This document shows, in pieces, positions 16,290 to 33,862 of a stretch of DNA of 64,000 nucleotides. This DNA is from Alteromonadaceae bacterium XY-R5 (lineage in GTDB: Bacteria; Pseudomonadota; Gammaproteobacteria; Enterobacterales; Alteromonadaceae). Numbering within the stretch: the first letter of the stretch is position 1; every line of letters begins with the position of its first letter. The stretch is taken from the NCBI GenBank assembly GCA_001660395.1, contig LXWE01000012.1, forward strand, positions 1-64,000. Direction: 5' to 3'. A program made the position numbers and the translations under genes. The notes under the pieces are model-generated. The model saw nothing but the letters and a program-made list of their open reading frames with translations. It did not search any database and was not told the origin of the DNA.

Positions 16290-19058
16290 ATGAGCAATCA
16301 CACCAGCAGACCGTTGATTTTAGTCGATGGCTCCTCTTATCTATTTCGCGCCTTTCATGCGATGCCCGACCTGACAAACTCGAAAGGCCAGCCAACTGGC
16401 GCTATTTACGGCGTCGTCAATATGTTGAGAAGTTTGGTCAAACAATATAACCCCAGCCATATGGCCGTTGTGTTTGATGCCAAAGGAAAAACGTTTCGCG
16501 ATGATATCTATTCAGAATACAAGGCTCATCGTCCACCGATGCCTGATGATCTGCGTAGCCAAATCGCACCATTGCACAAGATCGTTGAAGCCATGGGATT
16601 TCCGATCATCGTCCTGGAAGGAGTTGAGGCGGATGACGTCATCGGTACCTTATCAAAACAAGCGAGTGAACAAGGAATTGAAACTGTCATTAGTACTGGC
16701 GATAAGGACATGGCGCAACTGGTTAACACCCATGTAACCTTGATTAATACCATGACCAATACCACGATGGACTCACAAGGTGTTGTGGAAAAATTTGGTA
16801 TTCCTCCTGAGCTGATAATCGATTTCCTCGCGCTTAAAGGCGATAAAGTTGACAATATTCCTGGTGTACCGGGTGTGGGCGATAAAAGTGCGCTCGCGAT
16901 GTTACAAGGAATCGGTGGAATTGAAGCGATTTACCAGAACCTGGAAAAAATTGCCGACTTAGATTTCCGTGGCGCCAAGAAGATGGCCGATAAAATGCGG
17001 GAATTTGAAGAACAGGCTCGACTGTCATACTTGCTAGCAACGATTAAGTTAGACGTTGATATGCCCTATCAGCCAGCCAAGCTAGCTATTCAGGATCAAA
17101 ATAACAATGCATTGGCCGAATTATTTCAGGATCTTGAATTCAAGCGCTGGTATCAGGAAGTCAGCGGCAACATCAGCAGTGACACAACAGCGATTACACA
17201 AGCTTCATCAACGCAGTCGGTACCGGTAACCGTAAGTAAAATCAATCGCGAGGCTTATCAAGTCATTCTTACCCAGGCTGATCTCGATACCTGGATTGCA
17301 AAGCTCGAAAACAGTGAACTGTTTGCCATAGATACAGAAACAACCAGCATCAATTATATGGAAGCGGAGTTGGTTGGTTTTTCATTCGCCGTTGCAGAAG
17401 GTGAAGCTGCCTATTTACCCCTGGCTCATGATTATCCCGATGCTCCAGAGCAACTTGATAGAGCGGCGGTATTACAGCAACTTAAGCCTCTATTAGAAAA
17501 CACAAAACTGCAGAAAATCGGCCAGCATATCAAATATGATAAAAACGTATTGGCCAACTATGGTGTTAACCTCAGCGGTATATTCTCCGACACCATGCTG
17601 GAATCTTACGTGTTTAATAGTGTGGCTAGTCGTCATGACATGGATAGCCTGTCCTCCTATTATCTGGACCATCAAACGATTAAATTCGAAGATATTGCCG
17701 GAAAGGGGGCTAAACAACTCACCTTCAATCAAATTCCATTGGAACAGGCAGCCCCTTATGCAGCGGAAGATGCAGACGTTACATTGCGATTGCACCACGC
17801 CATTTACAATCAGCTTGAACCCATTTCTACATTGAAGAGTATTTTGTTAGATGTTGAAGTTCCCCTGGCCAGCGTTTTAGCGAGAATGGAACAATTTGGT
17901 GTCTTAATCGATAGCCAGCAACTTGGTCAGCAAAGTCAGCAGTTAGCCTCCCGAATTCTAGAATTAGAAAAAGAAGTACACGAAATTGCAGGTGAAGCCT
18001 TTAATTTGAGCTCAACCAAGCAACTACAAACCATCCTGTTTGAGAAGCTGAATCTACCGGTTTTGAAAAAGACACCTAAAGGGGCTCCATCAACATCAGA
18101 AGAAGTATTGCAGGAACTGGCGCTGGACTACCCTCTGCCCAAATTACTGATGGAATATCGTGGATTAACTAAACTGAAAAGTACCTATACAGATAAACTT
18201 CCCAAGATGATCGATGCTCGTACGGGTAGAGTGCACACTTCATATCATCAAGCGGTTACTGCAACGGGACGTTTATCTTCCACAGATCCCAATCTACAAA
18301 ACATTCCGATTCGAACTGAAGAAGGACGCAGAGTGCGCCAGGCGTTTGTGCCCCGTCCCGGATATAAAATTGTTGCGGCTGATTATTCTCAAATCGAGCT
18401 ACGTATTATGGCCCATCTCTCAGGAGATGAAGGCTTGGTTAAAGCCTTTGCAACTGGCCAGGATATTCACAAAGCGACAGCTTCAGAAGTGTTTGGAGTA
18501 GCATTAGAACAGGTCACTACGGAACAAAGACGTAATGCCAAAGCGATTAACTTTGGTCTGATATACGGCATGTCTGCATTCGGATTGTCTCGTCAATTAG
18601 GTATACCCCGCGCAGATGCCCAGCAGTACATGGATCTGTACTTTAAACGTTATCCCGGCGTACTCGATTATATGGAGACCACTCGCGATACGGCAAAAGC
18701 ACAAGGTTATGTAGAAACTGTATTTGGCCGACGTTTGTATCTGGCGGATATTCAGTCGAGCAATGCCATGCGCCGTAAAGGTGCAGAACGTGCCGCTATC
18801 AACGCCCCTATGCAAGGTACCGCGGCCGATATAATTAAAATGGCCATGCTCGCAGTAGATGATTGGATTAACAACTTGCCTGTAGATGAGGTCAGAATGA
18901 TCATGCAGGTTCACGATGAACTGGTCTTTGAAATCCGTGAAGACGTTTTGGACACCCATGTAAAGCAGATCGTTAAGCTGATGGAAGAAGCCGTTAAGTT
19001 ATCCGTTCCTCTGGTCGTTGAGGCCGGCGTCGGGAAAAACTGGGACGAAGCGCACTAG
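16290..19058 (+). CDS. polA: DNA polymerase I
   Basis: A 922-residue enzyme for Okazaki-fragment processing and repair. Domains: 5'-nuclease (about 1-290, [35 protein letters not shown]), 3'-5' exonuclease (about 325-520, with exo [10 protein letters not shown] intact, so proofreading is likely), and polymerase (motif [17 protein letters not shown], motif [17 protein letters not shown], motif [12 protein letters not shown]). Close in length to E. coli PolA (928). It is followed by spf, the classical gammaproteobacterial order, and preceded by two DnaA boxes. Confidence 0.98.
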
Positions 19059-19082
19059 TCGTTAATGGTAAAAAGCAACGCA

Positions 19083-19103
19083 TTCTGTAATTTTATTACA
19101 GAA
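19083..19103. repeat. AT-rich perfect inverted repeat between polA and spf
   Basis: TTCTGTAAT and ATTACAGAA are perfect complements separated by TTT. No T-run follows, so it is a poor intrinsic terminator. It ends 6 bp before the spf -35 hexamer, where an operator could sit. Its identity as a hairpin or an operator is unresolved. Confidence 0.55.
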
Positions 19104-19108
19104 ACAAC

Positions 19109-19136
19109 TTGATTTTGCTTTGCTCTGCGCTATTAT
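19109..19136 (+). promoter_or_regulatory. spf promoter
   Basis: A -35 TTGATT (19109-19114), 16-bp spacer and -10 TATTAT (19131-19136) place the start 7 nt downstream at G19144, exactly the first base of Spot 42. Confidence 0.8.
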
Positions 19137-19143
19137 TGACCGC

Positions 19144-19214
19144 GTAGGGTACAGAGGTAAGATGTTCTATCTTTCAGACCTTTGCTTGAACCCCGGCTAT
19201 GCCGGGGTTTTTTT
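19144..19214 (+). ncRNA. spf: Spot 42 small RNA, short form
   Basis: The first 40 nt (19144-19183), starting GTAGGGTACAGAGGTAAGAT, appear identical to the 5' part of E. coli Spot 42 as I recall that sequence. The RNA lies right after polA, its conserved site. In E. coli it is an Hfq-binding regulator of carbon-use genes, repressed by cAMP-CRP. Here the conserved head runs almost directly into a terminator (ACCCCGGC-TAT-GCCGGGGT then T7), giving about 70 nt against 109 in E. coli. The middle and third single-stranded segments are thus missing. Confidence 0.92.
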
Positions 19215-19321
19215 ATTCTTGTAATAAACTTCCAATATCTAATTAATTTACGACTTCGTAATTTTTTTACTTTATTTAAGAACGTTAAGTATGTGTTCGG
19301 CTAGCGGCTTATAATATAATT

Positions 19322-19446
19322 TGGAAGAAAATGAATAAAAAATGCGAGGGGAATGGAACTAACTGGAACAAGGGGACTCTGACTATACGGTTTTTATGTG
19401 TTTTCTCTCCTTATTACATCCCCGGTTTTTAACCGGGGATTTTTTT
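19322..19446 (+). ncRNA. Candidate GGA-rich small RNA between spf and engB
   Basis: A possible -10 TATAAT (19310-19315) precedes a 125-nt stretch that ends in a strong Rho-independent terminator: ATCCCCGGTT-TTT-AACCGGGGAT (19418-19440) followed by T7. The terminator points rightwards and cannot serve the leftward engB gene. Spot 42 has its own terminator 200 bp earlier. Five GGA motifs occur at 19323, 19350, 19355, 19365 and 19374, a density that could bind CsrA. No open reading frame with a ribosome-binding site is evident. The -35 is weak. Confidence 0.55.
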
Positions 19447-19453
19447 ATCTGAA

Positions 19454-20077
19454 TTATTCAGCTTCGTCTTGGTCCTGATCCTTAAGGTATCCAAACCAGG
19501 CATCAAGTACACCCTCGACATTGTCTAAACCCAATCCGTTTAAAGAAGAAAAAGCATGTACAGTCACATCGCCACAAAATGCGAGTGCAGCTTCTCTTGC
19601 CATCAGCAAAGTGGCTTTACGCTTACCTGATTTTAACTTGTCTGCTTTAGTCAGTAACGCAAGAACGGGAATATTCGCATCAACGGCCCATTGAATAAGT
19701 TGCTGGTCTAAATCTTTAAACGGATGACGAATATCCATCATCACAACTAACCCTTGCAGACTATTGCGGCTCTGTAGATACTCAGATAAAGCCTGTTGCC
19801 ATTTGAGTTTCATCGCCAGCGGCACTTGCGCAAACCCGTATCCAGGTAGATCAATCAGTCGACGCGTTTCATCAAGGCCGAACACATTGATCATTTGCGT
19901 ACGCCCTGGCGTTTTACTGGTTCTGGCCAAACTTTTCTGACGGGTTAACCGATTTAAAGCACTGGATTTACCTGCATTTGAACGACCAGCAAAGGCAATC
20001 TCAATTCCCTCATCTTCACCAAGATGACGAATATCCGGTGCACTTAATTCAAATTTTGCCCGACTGTAATGACTCAC
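19454..20077 (-). CDS. engB: Ribosome biogenesis GTPase EngB (YihA/YsxC)
   Basis: A 207-residue essential GTPase for 50S subunit assembly. G1 [12 protein letters not shown] (33-44), G2 region [10 protein letters not shown]3 [10 protein letters not shown] and G4 TKAD are all present; length fits (about 210 in E. coli). The gene is convergent with polA-spf, as in E. coli. The last residues are acidic. No terminator is seen for this strand beyond the stop. Confidence 0.96.
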
Positions 20078-20293
20078 TCTACCGCTCTCTTATGCCCGCC
20101 AGCGCCGGCAACTGAAATGAAAATTTACCCCAATTCGGCATTATATCATTTCCATCAACTATAATAACGCCTTGTAAATCTGAATAATTCCTTACTTTTT
20201 GTCCGGAAAATATTTTAACACTGTAGTAAATGTGTAGAATAAAATCACTCGGCTAAAATATAGCCAGTATTACAACTGCTTGGTGAGAATTTT

Positions 20294-20917
20294 ATGAAAA
20301 AAACGGGCCTGTTACTCTTCATTGGTTTAAGCATTTCTAATTATTCACTTGCGCTAGGTGACGCAGATGCAGGTAAAACAAAATCGGCTACTTGTGCCGC
20401 ATGCCACAATGCAGATGGTAACAGCGCCATTGAGATGAATCCTAAACTCGCAGGGCAGCACGCCAGTTACTTGCTCAAGCAGTTACAAGAATTCAAACTT
20501 GCTTCTCAGACAGGCGGTGAACAGGGTCGAAATAACGCCGTTATGAATGGCATGGCAGCCCCCTTATCGGAACAGGATATGGAAGATCTTGCTGCGTACT
20601 TTTCCAGCCAAACACAATCCCCAGGAAGTGCGCCAGAAAATATCATTGCAGCAGGAGCAAAGTTATATCAGGGAGGTGATTCTTCGCGTGGAATAACCGC
20701 CTGTATAGCCTGCCACGGTCCCCGCGGTGATGGTATGGGGTTGGCGAAGTTTCCAGACATTAGTGGCCAACATCCAACTTACATAAAGGCCCAGCTGGAA
20801 GCGTTTCGTTCAGGTCAGCGAGCAAATGACCCTAATGGAATGATGCGTGATATAGCCAAACGCTTAAGTAATGACGATATAGAACTACTTTCCAAATATA
20901 TCGCGGGTCTATATTAA
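20294..20917 (+). CDS. Dihaem cytochrome c4
   Basis: A 207-residue periplasmic electron carrier with a signal peptide (MKKTGLLLF... cleaved after SLA, residue 20). Two class I haem domains: CAACH at 34-38 and CIACH at 137-141, each followed by a distal Met region (MNGMAAPL near 84-91; MMRDIAKRL near the C-terminus). Cytochromes c4 donate electrons to terminal oxidases such as cbb3. A c4 gene beside engB/polA is also found in pseudomonads and Azotobacter. A GGTGAG ribosome-binding site precedes the ATG. Confidence 0.93.
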   Translation: MKKTGLLLFIGLSISNYSLALGDADAGKTKSATCAACHNADGNSAIEMNPKLAGQHASYLLKQLQEFKLASQTGGEQGRNNAVMNGMAAPLSEQDMEDLAAYFSSQTQSPGSAPENIIAAGAKLYQGGDSSRGITACIACHGPRGDGMGLAKFPDISGQHPTYIKAQLEAFRSGQRANDPNGMMRDIAKRLSNDDIELLSKYIAGLY

Positions 20918-21001
20918 TCCCATAGATATACCGGAAGTTATTAATTAAAAAGCAGTTTTCAGATAATTTTGTAAAACAATTGTAAACAAAATAATTTCGT
21001 G

Positions 21002-21007
21002 TATTCT
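21002..21007 (+). promoter_or_regulatory. -10 of the CsrC-like RNA promoter
   Basis: TATTCT at 21002-21007 is preceded at 16 bp by TTGTAA (20980-20985). The start would be near 21014. A direct repeat of TGTAAA lies over the -35 (20970-20985), where a regulator could bind; no inverted GacA/UvrY-type box was found. Confidence 0.5.
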
Positions 21008-21013
21008 AATGCG

Positions 21014-21267
21014 GCATTGCTTTTGTCATAGTATTGTCACTCAAAAGCATTAGTCTCGTGCGCGATTTGTCAGTAAGACGAATCTGAAAAACCAAAGGAA
21101 GCCCAATAAAGCGTCAGGAAGACCGATAACGATAATATGTCTTCGTTAAGAAAAGCAAAAAGAGAAGGCTCGCCAGGAAGGCAATGTTGTTTACGGAAAA
21201 ACTTGGAATGGGAGCTGTGTCTTAGGACACCAGAACATAGACAAGGTGGCTTTATGCCACCTTTTTC
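21014..21267 (+). ncRNA. csrC: CsrB/CsrC-like CsrA-titrating RNA candidate
   Basis: A 250-nt non-coding stretch between cytochrome c4 and the methyltransferase. GGA motifs start at 21097, 21117, 21176, 21195, 21205, 21211 and 21225, three of them as AGGAAG. It ends in a clean terminator: AAGGTGGC-TTTAT-GCCACCTT (21243-21263) with a T-run. In E. coli csrC, about 245 nt, lies in the same place between engB and yihI and on the same strand. The CsrC call combines synteny, size and motif density; similarity was not computed. A 98-codon antisense reading frame over it is taken as spurious. Confidence 0.68.
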
Positions 21268-21282
21268 TTTAGTATCCCTGCC

Positions 21283-21936
21283 ATGAAAATACCTAGTCTC
21301 TGCCCTCTCTGTCACCAATCCAGCATCACACATTATCATCGGGATAAACGTCGCGATTATTTTCAATGCACTAACTGCCTTCTAGTCTTTGTGCCACCAG
21401 AACAATTACCCCAAACAGCATCTGAAAAGCAGGAGTATGATCTTCATATCAACGAAATAGACGATCCTGGTTATCGCCGTTTTTTAGACAAAGTGTTTAC
21501 ACCACTTGTAACTAGACTCACAAGTGACGCTCAAGGCATAGACTTTGGCTGTGGCCCAGGACCTGCACTCCAGGCGATGCTTATTGAAGCAGGCTTTCCC
21601 ACTAATGTTTATGATCCATTTTATTTTCCTGACAGCCGCGTATTAGAGCAACAATACGACTTTATCAGCTGTACGGAAGCCATTGAACATTTTCACACTC
21701 CTGCAAAAGAGTGGGAAATGTTTATGAAAATGTTAAAAGTTGGGGGCATTCTTATAATTATGACTAAACGCGTCATTGACCAAACCAGATTCGCTAACTG
21801 GCATTACAAAAATGATCAGACTCACGTTAGCTTCTTCAGCAAGGACACATTCGAATATCTCGCTCATCAAGGGCAGCTTTCCATAGAATTTATTAGTGAT
21901 GATGTAGTTCTAATGCAGAAGCACAACAAGAAATAG
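21283..21936 (+). CDS. Class I SAM-dependent methyltransferase with N-terminal zinc ribbon
   Basis: 217 residues. The N-terminus has two CxxC pairs (C7-C10 and C29-C32) forming a probable zinc ribbon. A methyltransferase fold follows with the SAM loop GIDFGCGPGPAL near residue 86 and the post-motif FISCTEAIEHFHTP typical of the Methyltransf_23 group. The substrate is unknown. The start is just 15 bp past the terminator of the CsrC-like RNA, and yihI follows. Confidence 0.82.
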   Translation: MKIPSLCPLCHQSSITHYHRDKRRDYFQCTNCLLVFVPPEQLPQTASEKQEYDLHINEIDDPGYRRFLDKVFTPLVTRLTSDAQGIDFGCGPGPALQAMLIEAGFPTNVYDPFYFPDSRVLEQQYDFISCTEAIEHFHTPAKEWEMFMKMLKVGGILIIMTKRVIDQTRFANWHYKNDQTHVSFFSKDTFEYLAHQGQLSIEFISDDVVLMQKHNKK

Positions 21937-21994
21937 GGTAAAATAGGCGTATAGCCATTATGGCAATCCTATTGTTCTGTGTTTTGAGGTCAGC

Positions 21995-22504
21995 ATGTCC
22001 AGACAGAAGAAATCACGTAAAGTCGGCACCATAGGCGTTAAGAAAAGCCCAACCCGACCAACGACTCCCGCAAAAGTTAAGAAATCCTGGAAGAAACCCT
22101 CAGGAAAGCCTGCTGGTAGTCGCCACAGCGCCACTGAAGTTATTACAGCATCCAGAGGCCCACAGAAGAAAGATCCCAGAGTTGGCAGCAAAAAGCCCAT
22201 CGATTTATTTGCGTCTAATAGTCCTAAAAAGGAAGTAAAGAAAAAGTATTACTCCCCTGCCGAGGAGCTTGCTGCGATTGAACAAGATGTACGTTTAGAG
22301 AAGTTGCTGGATACTCTTGATAGTGGCACTCGCTTGTCACTTGAAGAACAGGCTTATGTCGACCAAAAGATGGCCCGACACCAAATTTTATGTGACCTGT
22401 TAGGTATTAAGCCAGAAGATGAAGAACAGACTGAAAGCCAGATTGACGAAGAAGATGATCTGCTCACTCAGTACGATAAAGCAGACCTAAGCAAATATCG
22501 TTAG
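21995..22504 (+). CDS. yihI: Der GTPase-activating protein YihI
   Basis: 169 residues: a very basic, disordered N-terminus (MSRQKKSRKVGTIGVKK...), the conserved KDPRVGSKKPIDL motif (about 55-67), then the YSPAEELAAIEQD...RLSLEEQAYVDQKM helical region and an acidic tail. This matches E. coli YihI in layout. YihI stimulates the GTPase Der (EngA) and so modulates 50S assembly; its neighbour engB acts in the same process. It is followed 2 bp later by the DUF2489 gene. Confidence 0.9.
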   Translation: MSRQKKSRKVGTIGVKKSPTRPTTPAKVKKSWKKPSGKPAGSRHSATEVITASRGPQKKDPRVGSKKPIDLFASNSPKKEVKKKYYSPAEELAAIEQDVRLEKLLDTLDSGTRLSLEEQAYVDQKMARHQILCDLLGIKPEDEEQTESQIDEEDDLLTQYDKADLSKYR

Positions 22505-32476: not shown

Positions 32477-33862
32477 TTAGGACGATAAGGTACGAATCAA
32501 GTTCTGATAATCTTCTTTGATATCATGACTTTCTTCACGTAGTTGTACGATTTTACGACACGCATGCAGCACAGTTGTATGATCCCTGCCGCCGAAGGCA
32601 TCTCCAATCTCAGGTAAGCTGTGGTTTGTTAACTCTTTGGCTAATGCCATCGCTAATTGACGAGGCCTAGCTACACTTCTGCTTCGGCGCTTAGATAAAA
32701 TATCAGCGACTTTGATTTTGTAATATTCTGCGACAGTTTTCTGAATATTTTCAATGGTGACAAGCTTTTCTTGCAGCGCTAATAAATCGCGTAATGCTTC
32801 TCGAACAAAATCGATAGTAATAGGCCTACCCGTAAAATTAGCATTCGCAATTACGCGGTTTAAAGCCCCTTCTAATTCCCGCACATTGGAACGTAAACGC
32901 TTAGCAATAAAGAAGGCCACTTCATCTGGCAATCGAATATTATTTTCTATCGCCTTTCGCATCAAAATCGCGACTCGAGTCTCCAATTCCGGAGGCTCGA
33001 TCGCGATAGTCAAACCCCAACCGAATCGTGACTTAAGACGATCTTCAACCCCATCAATTTCTTTGGGATAACGATCTGAAGTCAAAATGATCTGCTGGTT
33101 TCCTTCTAACAGAGCATTAAAGGTATGAAAAAACTCTTCCTGAGAACGTTCTTTATTTGCAAAGAACTGAATGTCATCAATTAGCAGTGCATCTACCGAA
33201 CGATAATAACGTTTAAACTCTTCAATCGCATTATTCTGTAATGCCTTTACCATATCCTGTACAAAGCGCTCTGAATGCATATACACCACTTTAGCGTCTT
33301 GCTTACGCGCCATGATGCCGTTCCCAACCGCATGTAATAAGTGGGTCTTACCTAGACCAGTACCACCATAAATAAATAGCGGGTTATATGCGCCCCCCGG
33401 ATTGTCAGCGACCTGAGTTGCAGCAGCTCGAGCTAACTGGTTCGACTTACCTTCAACAAAGTTATCAAACTGATAATTAGGATTGATATTACTTTTATGA
33501 TCTGACGGATGTCTCTGATCTGGTAAAACTGAAGATGGACGCAAACCAGGATGAGCTTGTACTTGAGGCTGAACCATAGATTGTTGAACTAGAGGCTCAG
33601 GATTTCGATTTACGACCGGCTGACGATCACCCACTTCTAAACGTAATTGAGGACGATCAGGGCCACAAAACTCTGTAAACAGTTCTGATATTTTCCCCAA
33701 ATACTTGTCACGCACCCAGTCAGCAACAAAACGATTAGGCGCATACAAAGTCACAGTCGATGTGTCCTCACTGGCTTTTAGCGGCCTTATCCACATACTA
33801 AACTGCTGAGTTGGCAAATCTTGCTGTAACCTGCCAAGGCACTGATCCCACAAGGAAGTCAA
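32477..33862 (-). CDS. dnaA: Chromosomal replication initiator DnaA
   Basis: A 461-residue initiator that opens oriC. Domain I (1-80, [15 protein letters not shown]), a variable proline/glutamine-rich linker, the AAA+ domain III with Walker [16 protein letters not shown] and Walker [10 protein letters not shown], and domain IV with the DnaA-box-binding signature [15 protein letters not shown]. The start is a TTG at 33862 with AGGA 6 nt upstream; a weak start codon fits the low-level expression usual for dnaA. It heads dnaA-dnaN-recF-gyrB. Confidence 0.97.

Follow-up and report, generated by a model that had tools for sequence, protein, structure and literature searches.

CsrC is a decoy RNA of Escherichia coli for the carbon-regulator protein CsrA, and csrC encodes a separate trans-acting RNA. 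The Rsm-type RNAs of Pseudomonas function with few GGA motifs. Discovery of Csr RNAs is hindered by their sequence variation between genera, according to the accessible part of a study on Pseudoalteromonas fuliginea, in which the RNA Pf1 is reported to bind CsrA and affect glycogen synthesis in E. coli (PMC9927453). Excerpts of other reports describe the UvrY-dependent CsrB1 and CsrB2 of Shewanella oneidensis at SO_1615-SO_1617, together with a predicted CsrC at mutM/SO_4727 (PMC3171408), several Csr RNAs per genome (CsrB, CsrC and CsrD) in Vibrio (PMC6262261), and Aln1a-c of Alteromonas macleodii Te101, three Csr-type RNAs in one 404-nt intergenic region, Te101_04650-04655 (PMC5864184). The portion of the published literature covered here contains no report of an RNA at the engB–yihI spot outside enterobacteria.

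The candidate RNA between engB and yihI

The window, i.e., the whole 64,000-nt stretch of DNA that was analysed, carries polA and a weak match to Spot 42, followed by engB on the minus strand, a cytochrome c4-like gene, the candidate RNA, a methyltransferase gene, yihI, and DUF2489. The E. coli series polA, spf, yihA (engB), csrC, and yihI agrees with this in order and strands. The candidate lies between engB and yihI on the yihI strand, and by place it is thus a positional orthologue of csrC. The relevant features are as follows.

19454..20077, minus strand: engB (yihA) GTPase, MMR_HSR1 match
20294..20917, plus strand: cytochrome c4-like gene with cytochrome c domains
20969..20985, plus strand: direct repeat TTGTAA-N5-TTGTAA, exact in 11 of the 14 aligned sequences; the second copy (20980-20985) is the likely -35 element
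21000..21007, plus strand: putative extended -10 element TG-TATTCT, 16 nt past the -35 element, in a conserved TGTA.TCT column block
21014..21270, plus strand: predicted csrC-like small RNA of ~257 nt with seven GGA; 5' end placed from the -10 element
21113..21123, plus strand: hairpin 1, GUC-AGGAA-GAC, with GGA in the loop; all cells paired in 14 sequences
21140..21168, plus strand: hairpin 2, CUUC/GAAG stem with an A-rich loop; both-side changes at 5 of 5 pairs, 90% of cells paired
21172..21182, plus strand: hairpin GCC-AGGAA-GGC with GGA in the loop, read directly from the sequence and outside the consensus fold
21210..21214, plus strand: GGGAG; GGGA invariant in 14 of 14 sequences, GGGAG in 13 of 14
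21217..21230, plus strand: hairpin 3, GUGUC-UUAG-GACAC; 92.9% of cells paired, double changes at 2 of 6 pairs
21243..21270, plus strand: intrinsic terminator (21243-21263) and T-run
21283..21936, plus strand: methyltransferase gene (Methyltransf_23), starting 13 nt past the terminator T-run
21995..22504, plus strand: yihI, Der GTPase activator (Pfam YihI, 120 bits)

An earlier note on this DNA had described a non-coding stretch with seven GGA motifs and a terminator between engB (with cytochrome c4) and yihI, in the place and on the strand of E. coli csrC. The stretch was confirmed, with its GGA motifs on the plus strand only, and the matching yihA (engB)–csrC–yihI order supports the place and strand. 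The methyltransferase gene, which separates the RNA from yihI, is absent from that description. With regard to the Csr/Rsm-type features of a non-coding RNA with its own promoter and intrinsic terminator, the sequence offers a terminator, a promoter-like block, and no stable reading frame. A strict consensus promoter scan did not report the extended -10 element at 21000..21007.

There are seven GGA on the plus strand of 21016-21270 and none on the minus strand. The mean expected from 5000 dinucleotide shuffles is 3.9 (P = 0.044); under mononucleotide shuffles, P is 0.13, and 2.7% of all 255-nt windows across the 64 kb contain at least seven GGA. The fold stability of the single sequence is not unusual (z = -1.43; 18 of 200 shuffles were equally stable). 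The Rfam CsrB/CsrC models, which the earlier note had suggested running over this region, gave a negative answer for the candidate. CsrC (RF00084) had no match at the gathering score in the window, nor at E <= 10 within 18600-22000. CsrB (RF00018) did not match at the candidate, and its only match at E <= 1 in the same genome is on another contig (C372). The best Csr-clan match was PrrB_RsmZ with an E value of 9.1. The Rfam scans covered the window, 56 loci of relatives, and then 15 and 14 further loci. Among these, the loci of E. coli, Enterobacter, and Yersinia were the only ones with a Csr family at the engB–yihI spot (RF00084 in the E. coli and Enterobacter loci), and a Rahnella locus was negative. 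A plain DNA search for paralogues of the RNA in its own genome gave a next best E value of 0.175. The genome has three other GTCAGGAWGACC matches, of which two fall within coding sequence and one just past a gene's terminator; none was judged to be a Csr RNA. Because the GGA count is marginal and an Rfam match is missing, the window alone makes a weak case, and the assignment rests on the comparison with relatives.

Conservation and spread at the engB–yihI spot

engB was detected in 57 of 59 genomes including the window's own, and 56 further engB regions were compared with the window. The order engB–cytochrome c4–gap–(methyltransferase)–yihI is common among the relatives. One RNA with covarying hairpins is common to the window and 13 relatives, and its core (21103-21270 in the window) was aligned and modelled. 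The 14 sequences have a conserved series of TTGTAA repeats, a TATTCT-like box, AUAAAGNGUCAGGANGACC, the CUUC/GAAG hairpin with its A-rich loop, GGGAGAAGUGUC with its hairpin, and the terminator; one relative (L063) differs in the 3' part. In the consensus structure, which was derived from the same alignment as that used for measuring covariation, 93.4% of 334 cells are paired and both-side changes occur at 14 of 24 pairs. Neither value was reached in any of 500 shuffles, and pairing falls to 33-54% when the partners are slid. A fifth covariation measure, the number of further pair types, was ordinary (159 of 500 shuffles were as high). Hairpin 1 has double changes at one of its three pairs, the other two being invariant, and its loop GGA is present in 12 of the 14 sequences. 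Each RNA has 3-9 GGA. There is no long reading frame common to the 14 sequences, in which the longest frames (24-66 aa) vary in length and strand.

Two models were prepared from 13 of the 14 sequences, R1 and, without the terminator, R2. L063 was excluded from both because of its different 3' part, and it was still matched by R1 (33.9 bits) and R2 (31.1 bits). In the 59 whole genomes, R1 found a match at E <= 1 in 46 and none in 13. Genomic place was assessed at E <= 1e-3, where 18 non-training matches were obtained besides the 13 training matches. Seventeen of the 18 are directly upstream of yihI or of a methyltransferase–yihI pair. Seven are flanked by cytochrome c4 on one side and the methyltransferase gene or yihI on the other, and one follows cytochrome c4 at a place where yihI was not detected. 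The remaining ten come from genomes with engB elsewhere (L279-L288, Colwellia-like by the nearest named locus), and all ten are directly upstream of yihI on its strand. At E <= 0.01, R1 also matches Aliidiomarina sanyensis upstream of a displaced yihI.

Next to engB and on the expected strand, R1 matched 44 of 80 named loci at E <= 0.01, one of which (L125) belongs to a training genome. Two loci (L183 and L202) have additional reverse-strand matches around the terminator at this threshold. R1 matches E. coli csrC with 35.5 bits via the terminator and one GUCAGGAAGAC hairpin, and a reverse-strand match around the same terminator also scores 23.5 bits. With R2, all seven Shewanella and all five Pseudoalteromonas loci were matched at E <= 0.001. 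For Vibrio, R2 matched one of 13 loci at E <= 0.01, with six more between 0.05 and 0.85. No enterobacterial csrC locus was matched by R2 at E <= 1, which leaves position, strand, GGA clustering, and the terminator as the basis of the link to enterobacteria. Of 58 colinear named loci, 32 have GGA motifs clustered at the spot on the expected strand (P <= 0.01), among them some but not all of those from Vibrio, Shewanella, Pseudoalteromonas, and enterobacteria; the other 22 of the 80 named loci, where engB and yihI are not colinear within 3.3 kb, were left out of this count. The reverse strand never reaches eight GGA in the 58 loci. Three named Alteromonas loci showed no GGA enrichment (5-6 per 250 nt, P = 0.085-0.5), and the gap contains 0-3 GGA at the loci of Psychromonas, Motilimonas, Brenneria, and Prodigiosinella.

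The earlier note had called the RNA CsrC-like and proposed that its location has been kept since before the split of enterobacteria and this group. An RNA resembling CsrC does occupy the csrC place, and 17 of 18 R1 matches at yihI and the GGA-dense spot in 32 of 58 loci suggest that the place was probably occupied before the Enterobacteriaceae and this group separated. Homology to enterobacterial csrC was not borne out at the level of sequence, with nothing at E <= 1 once the terminator is removed.

A predicted Csr-type RNA is present at the engB–yihI spot in seven Shewanella loci (L183, L194, L197, and L199-L202). The neighbouring yihI provides a handle for finding Csr-type RNAs, and at the scanned loci of Shewanella, Pseudoalteromonas, Colwellia-like genomes, and Vibrio, those at this spot are unflagged by Rfam. 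The distribution also raises the question of why the RNA keeps with yihI when engB does not.

The CsrB-type RNA and other small RNAs of the genome

The genome has one csrA gene and one UvrY homologue, which is 63% identical to that of E. coli. It also has a predicted CsrB-type RNA on contig C372 (8345-8586 of locus L261), with 26.2 bits, below the cut-off of 71. The region contains 32 GGA in 601 nt, and its neighbours are syd, a GNAT gene, DUF3301, DUF3549, yqcC, truC, and yqcA. This is also the place of csrB in E. coli, where it is flanked by syd and yqcC. CsrB and CsrC of E. coli would thus each have a counterpart at the corresponding chromosomal place in a distant relative. A UvrY-like box (11/12, P = 0.003) precedes the CsrB-type RNA, and five of seven CsrB loci of the clade have such a box with at least 11/12. 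At the csrC spot, the UvrY-box scan gave no hit at P < 0.05 in 17 clade loci, nor in eight enterobacterial csrC loci, where the box of E. coli is 9/12. The scan is weak because E. coli csrC itself does not pass, and the result for the clade is therefore not taken as a loss of UvrY control. The CsrB-type RNA of this genome escaped a stricter CsrB scan of the relatives, so that absence from that scan is hardly informative. Shewanella marisflavi has a CsrB-type match beside DUF3301. Three Vibrio genomes, whose engB-spot places were matched by coordinates to L188, L138, and L150, have three RNAs each above the CsrB cut-off elsewhere, and the RNA at the engB spot is a further one with 17-39 bits (cut-off 71).

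The sibling found for the csrC-type RNA is this CsrB-type RNA, instead of the candidate at 19322 with which the earlier note had proposed a pair around engB. That pairing was not supported, and the candidate at 19322 was rejected as a Csr partner. The relatives carry a different small RNA there. In the window, its GGTTTTTATGTGTTTTCTCT element begins at 19388; of the six GGA at this place, five are upstream of the element and the sixth is within its terminator. In the Spot 42–engB gap, GGTTTTTATGTGTTTTCTCT is exact in 3 of 13 relatives, and the remaining relatives have variants of it before a terminator as judged by eye. Among 17 named loci examined, five have it up to the last base. The whole gap contains 0-3 GGA in 12 of the 13 relatives; the other one (L061) has 12 in a gap of 1068 nt.

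The element at 19388-19447 is a second conserved small RNA, consisting of CGGTTTTTATGTGTTTTCTCT and a terminator between Spot 42 and engB, and it is also found at Alteromonas loci. Its place resembles that of VSsrna24 of Vibrionaceae as given in the accessible text of its report (PMC3295665). A Spot 42-like RNA at 19134-19214 scores 49.3 bits against the Rfam cut-off of 80, and 12 of 13 relatives share its start, GTAGGGTACAG. At 33290-33370, there is an Rfam match to AsdA, the antisense RNA of dnaA, with 61.3 bits, which exceeds the cut-off of 52.

Proposed function and relation to known Csr systems

We interpret the ~257-nt predicted RNA as a positional orthologue of csrC that would act as a small CsrA decoy and also as a leader of methyltransferase–yihI, with a probability of roughly 0.8. 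As judged from its motifs, the candidate is a short form of CsrC with few decoy motifs and without a recognisable UvrY box. Transcription would start from the promoter-like block with the TTGTAA repeats. CsrA may be bound via the GGA motifs in the hairpin loops at 21116-21120 and 21175-21179 and via GGGAG, which would leave less free CsrA. Because seven GGA hold few CsrA dimers, the bulk decoy is probably the CsrB-type RNA with 32 GGA in 601 nt. Next to it, the csrC-type RNA would serve as a smaller decoy with a promoter signal (the TTGTAA repeats) different from the UvrY-like box of the CsrB-type RNA.

A second role as a read-through leader of the following genes is likely, because the methyltransferase gene starts 13 nt past the terminator. 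Transcripts of this gene would pass through the RNA, whether they arise by read-through or initiate within it. In seven of eight further clade members with the gene, its start is 10-50 nt past the terminator, and there is consequently little room for a promoter; for L057, L060, and L061, the distance was taken from the start of the BLAST match, with no start codon found before it. In the eighth member (L065), the open frame extends back into the terminator, 29 nt past which the BLAST match begins. In the Shewanella and Vibrio loci, the gap after the RNA is 50-278 nt, which is mostly enough for a separate promoter.

The same distances, and the association of the RNA with yihI in all ten genomes where engB is elsewhere, also fit an RNA that is mainly a cis-acting 5' leader, in which CsrA or another factor would set the read-through of the terminator into methyltransferase–yihI with no significant role in trans. 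We consider this unlikely, though with a real chance of being correct, since E. coli csrC is a separate trans-acting RNA with the same neighbours, the next gene varies between the methyltransferase gene and yihI, and the Shewanella and Vibrio gaps mostly leave space for a promoter of their own. A csrC descendant that no longer serves as a CsrA decoy appears rather improbable. Such an RNA might be a base-pairing or Hfq-dependent small RNA working via the A-rich hairpin and the GGGAGAAGUGUC element, and it would be consistent with 3-9 GGA per sequence alongside conserved hairpins 2 and 3 and GGGA, as well as with the GGA-rich RNA elsewhere in the same genome. However, 12 of 14 sequences retain the GGA in the hairpin 1 loop and all 14 retain GGGA, and few GGA suffice for the Rsm-type RNAs of Pseudomonas.

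It is very improbable that a GGA-bearing RNA unrelated to csrC arose independently at the same spot. The similarity to enterobacterial csrC is indeed confined to the terminator and one short hairpin, but relatives occupy the spot through Shewanella, Pseudoalteromonas, and weakly Vibrio, and the RNA is tied to yihI where engB is elsewhere. The reading as a csrC-type decoy and leader is preferred. A bolder version of it, which we hold to be speculative and improbable as it stands, is that csrC–yihI is an ancient functional unit. The RNA would be both decoy and leader, the occupancy of the nascent RNA by CsrA would set terminator read-through, and in the Alteromonas-like clade the decoy part would have shrunk with the leader becoming dominant. 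If true, this unit would wire carbon status to YihI, a regulator of the ribosome-assembly GTPase Der.

Among the described systems, Aln1a-c probably correspond to the CsrB locus and not to the csrC-type spot. The CsrB-type RNA is 163-164 kb from csrA in two Alteromonas genomes, one of them assigned by its nearest named locus, a distance that fits the Te101 numbers in the available part of the report if the tags step by five (csrA 05290). In one of the two genomes, csrA and the engB spot are at least 1.13 Mb apart. The 404-nt length is left unexplained by this assignment, as the gap seen here is longer. The engB–yihI RNA of the seven Shewanella loci, which are from other species, is placed elsewhere than CsrB1, CsrB2, and the predicted CsrC of S. 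oneidensis as far as these are given in the accessible text. In comparison with CsrB, CsrC, and CsrD of Vibrio, as partially documented, the engB-spot RNA is additional to the three RNAs above the CsrB cut-off in the three genomes examined here. Pf1, a Csr-type RNA of a related genus, has 21 GGA and a putative GacA box in the part of its description available (PMC9927453), compared with seven GGA in the window RNA. Relative to E. coli CsrC, the window RNA has fewer GGA, no Rfam match, and no recognisable UvrY box (that of E. coli scores only 9/12), and cytochrome c4 and methyltransferase genes are added around it. The two are nevertheless alike in their engB/yihA–yihI place and strand, length (246 nt annotated for RF00084 and ~257 nt predicted here), GGA hairpins (predicted here), and terminator with its tail.
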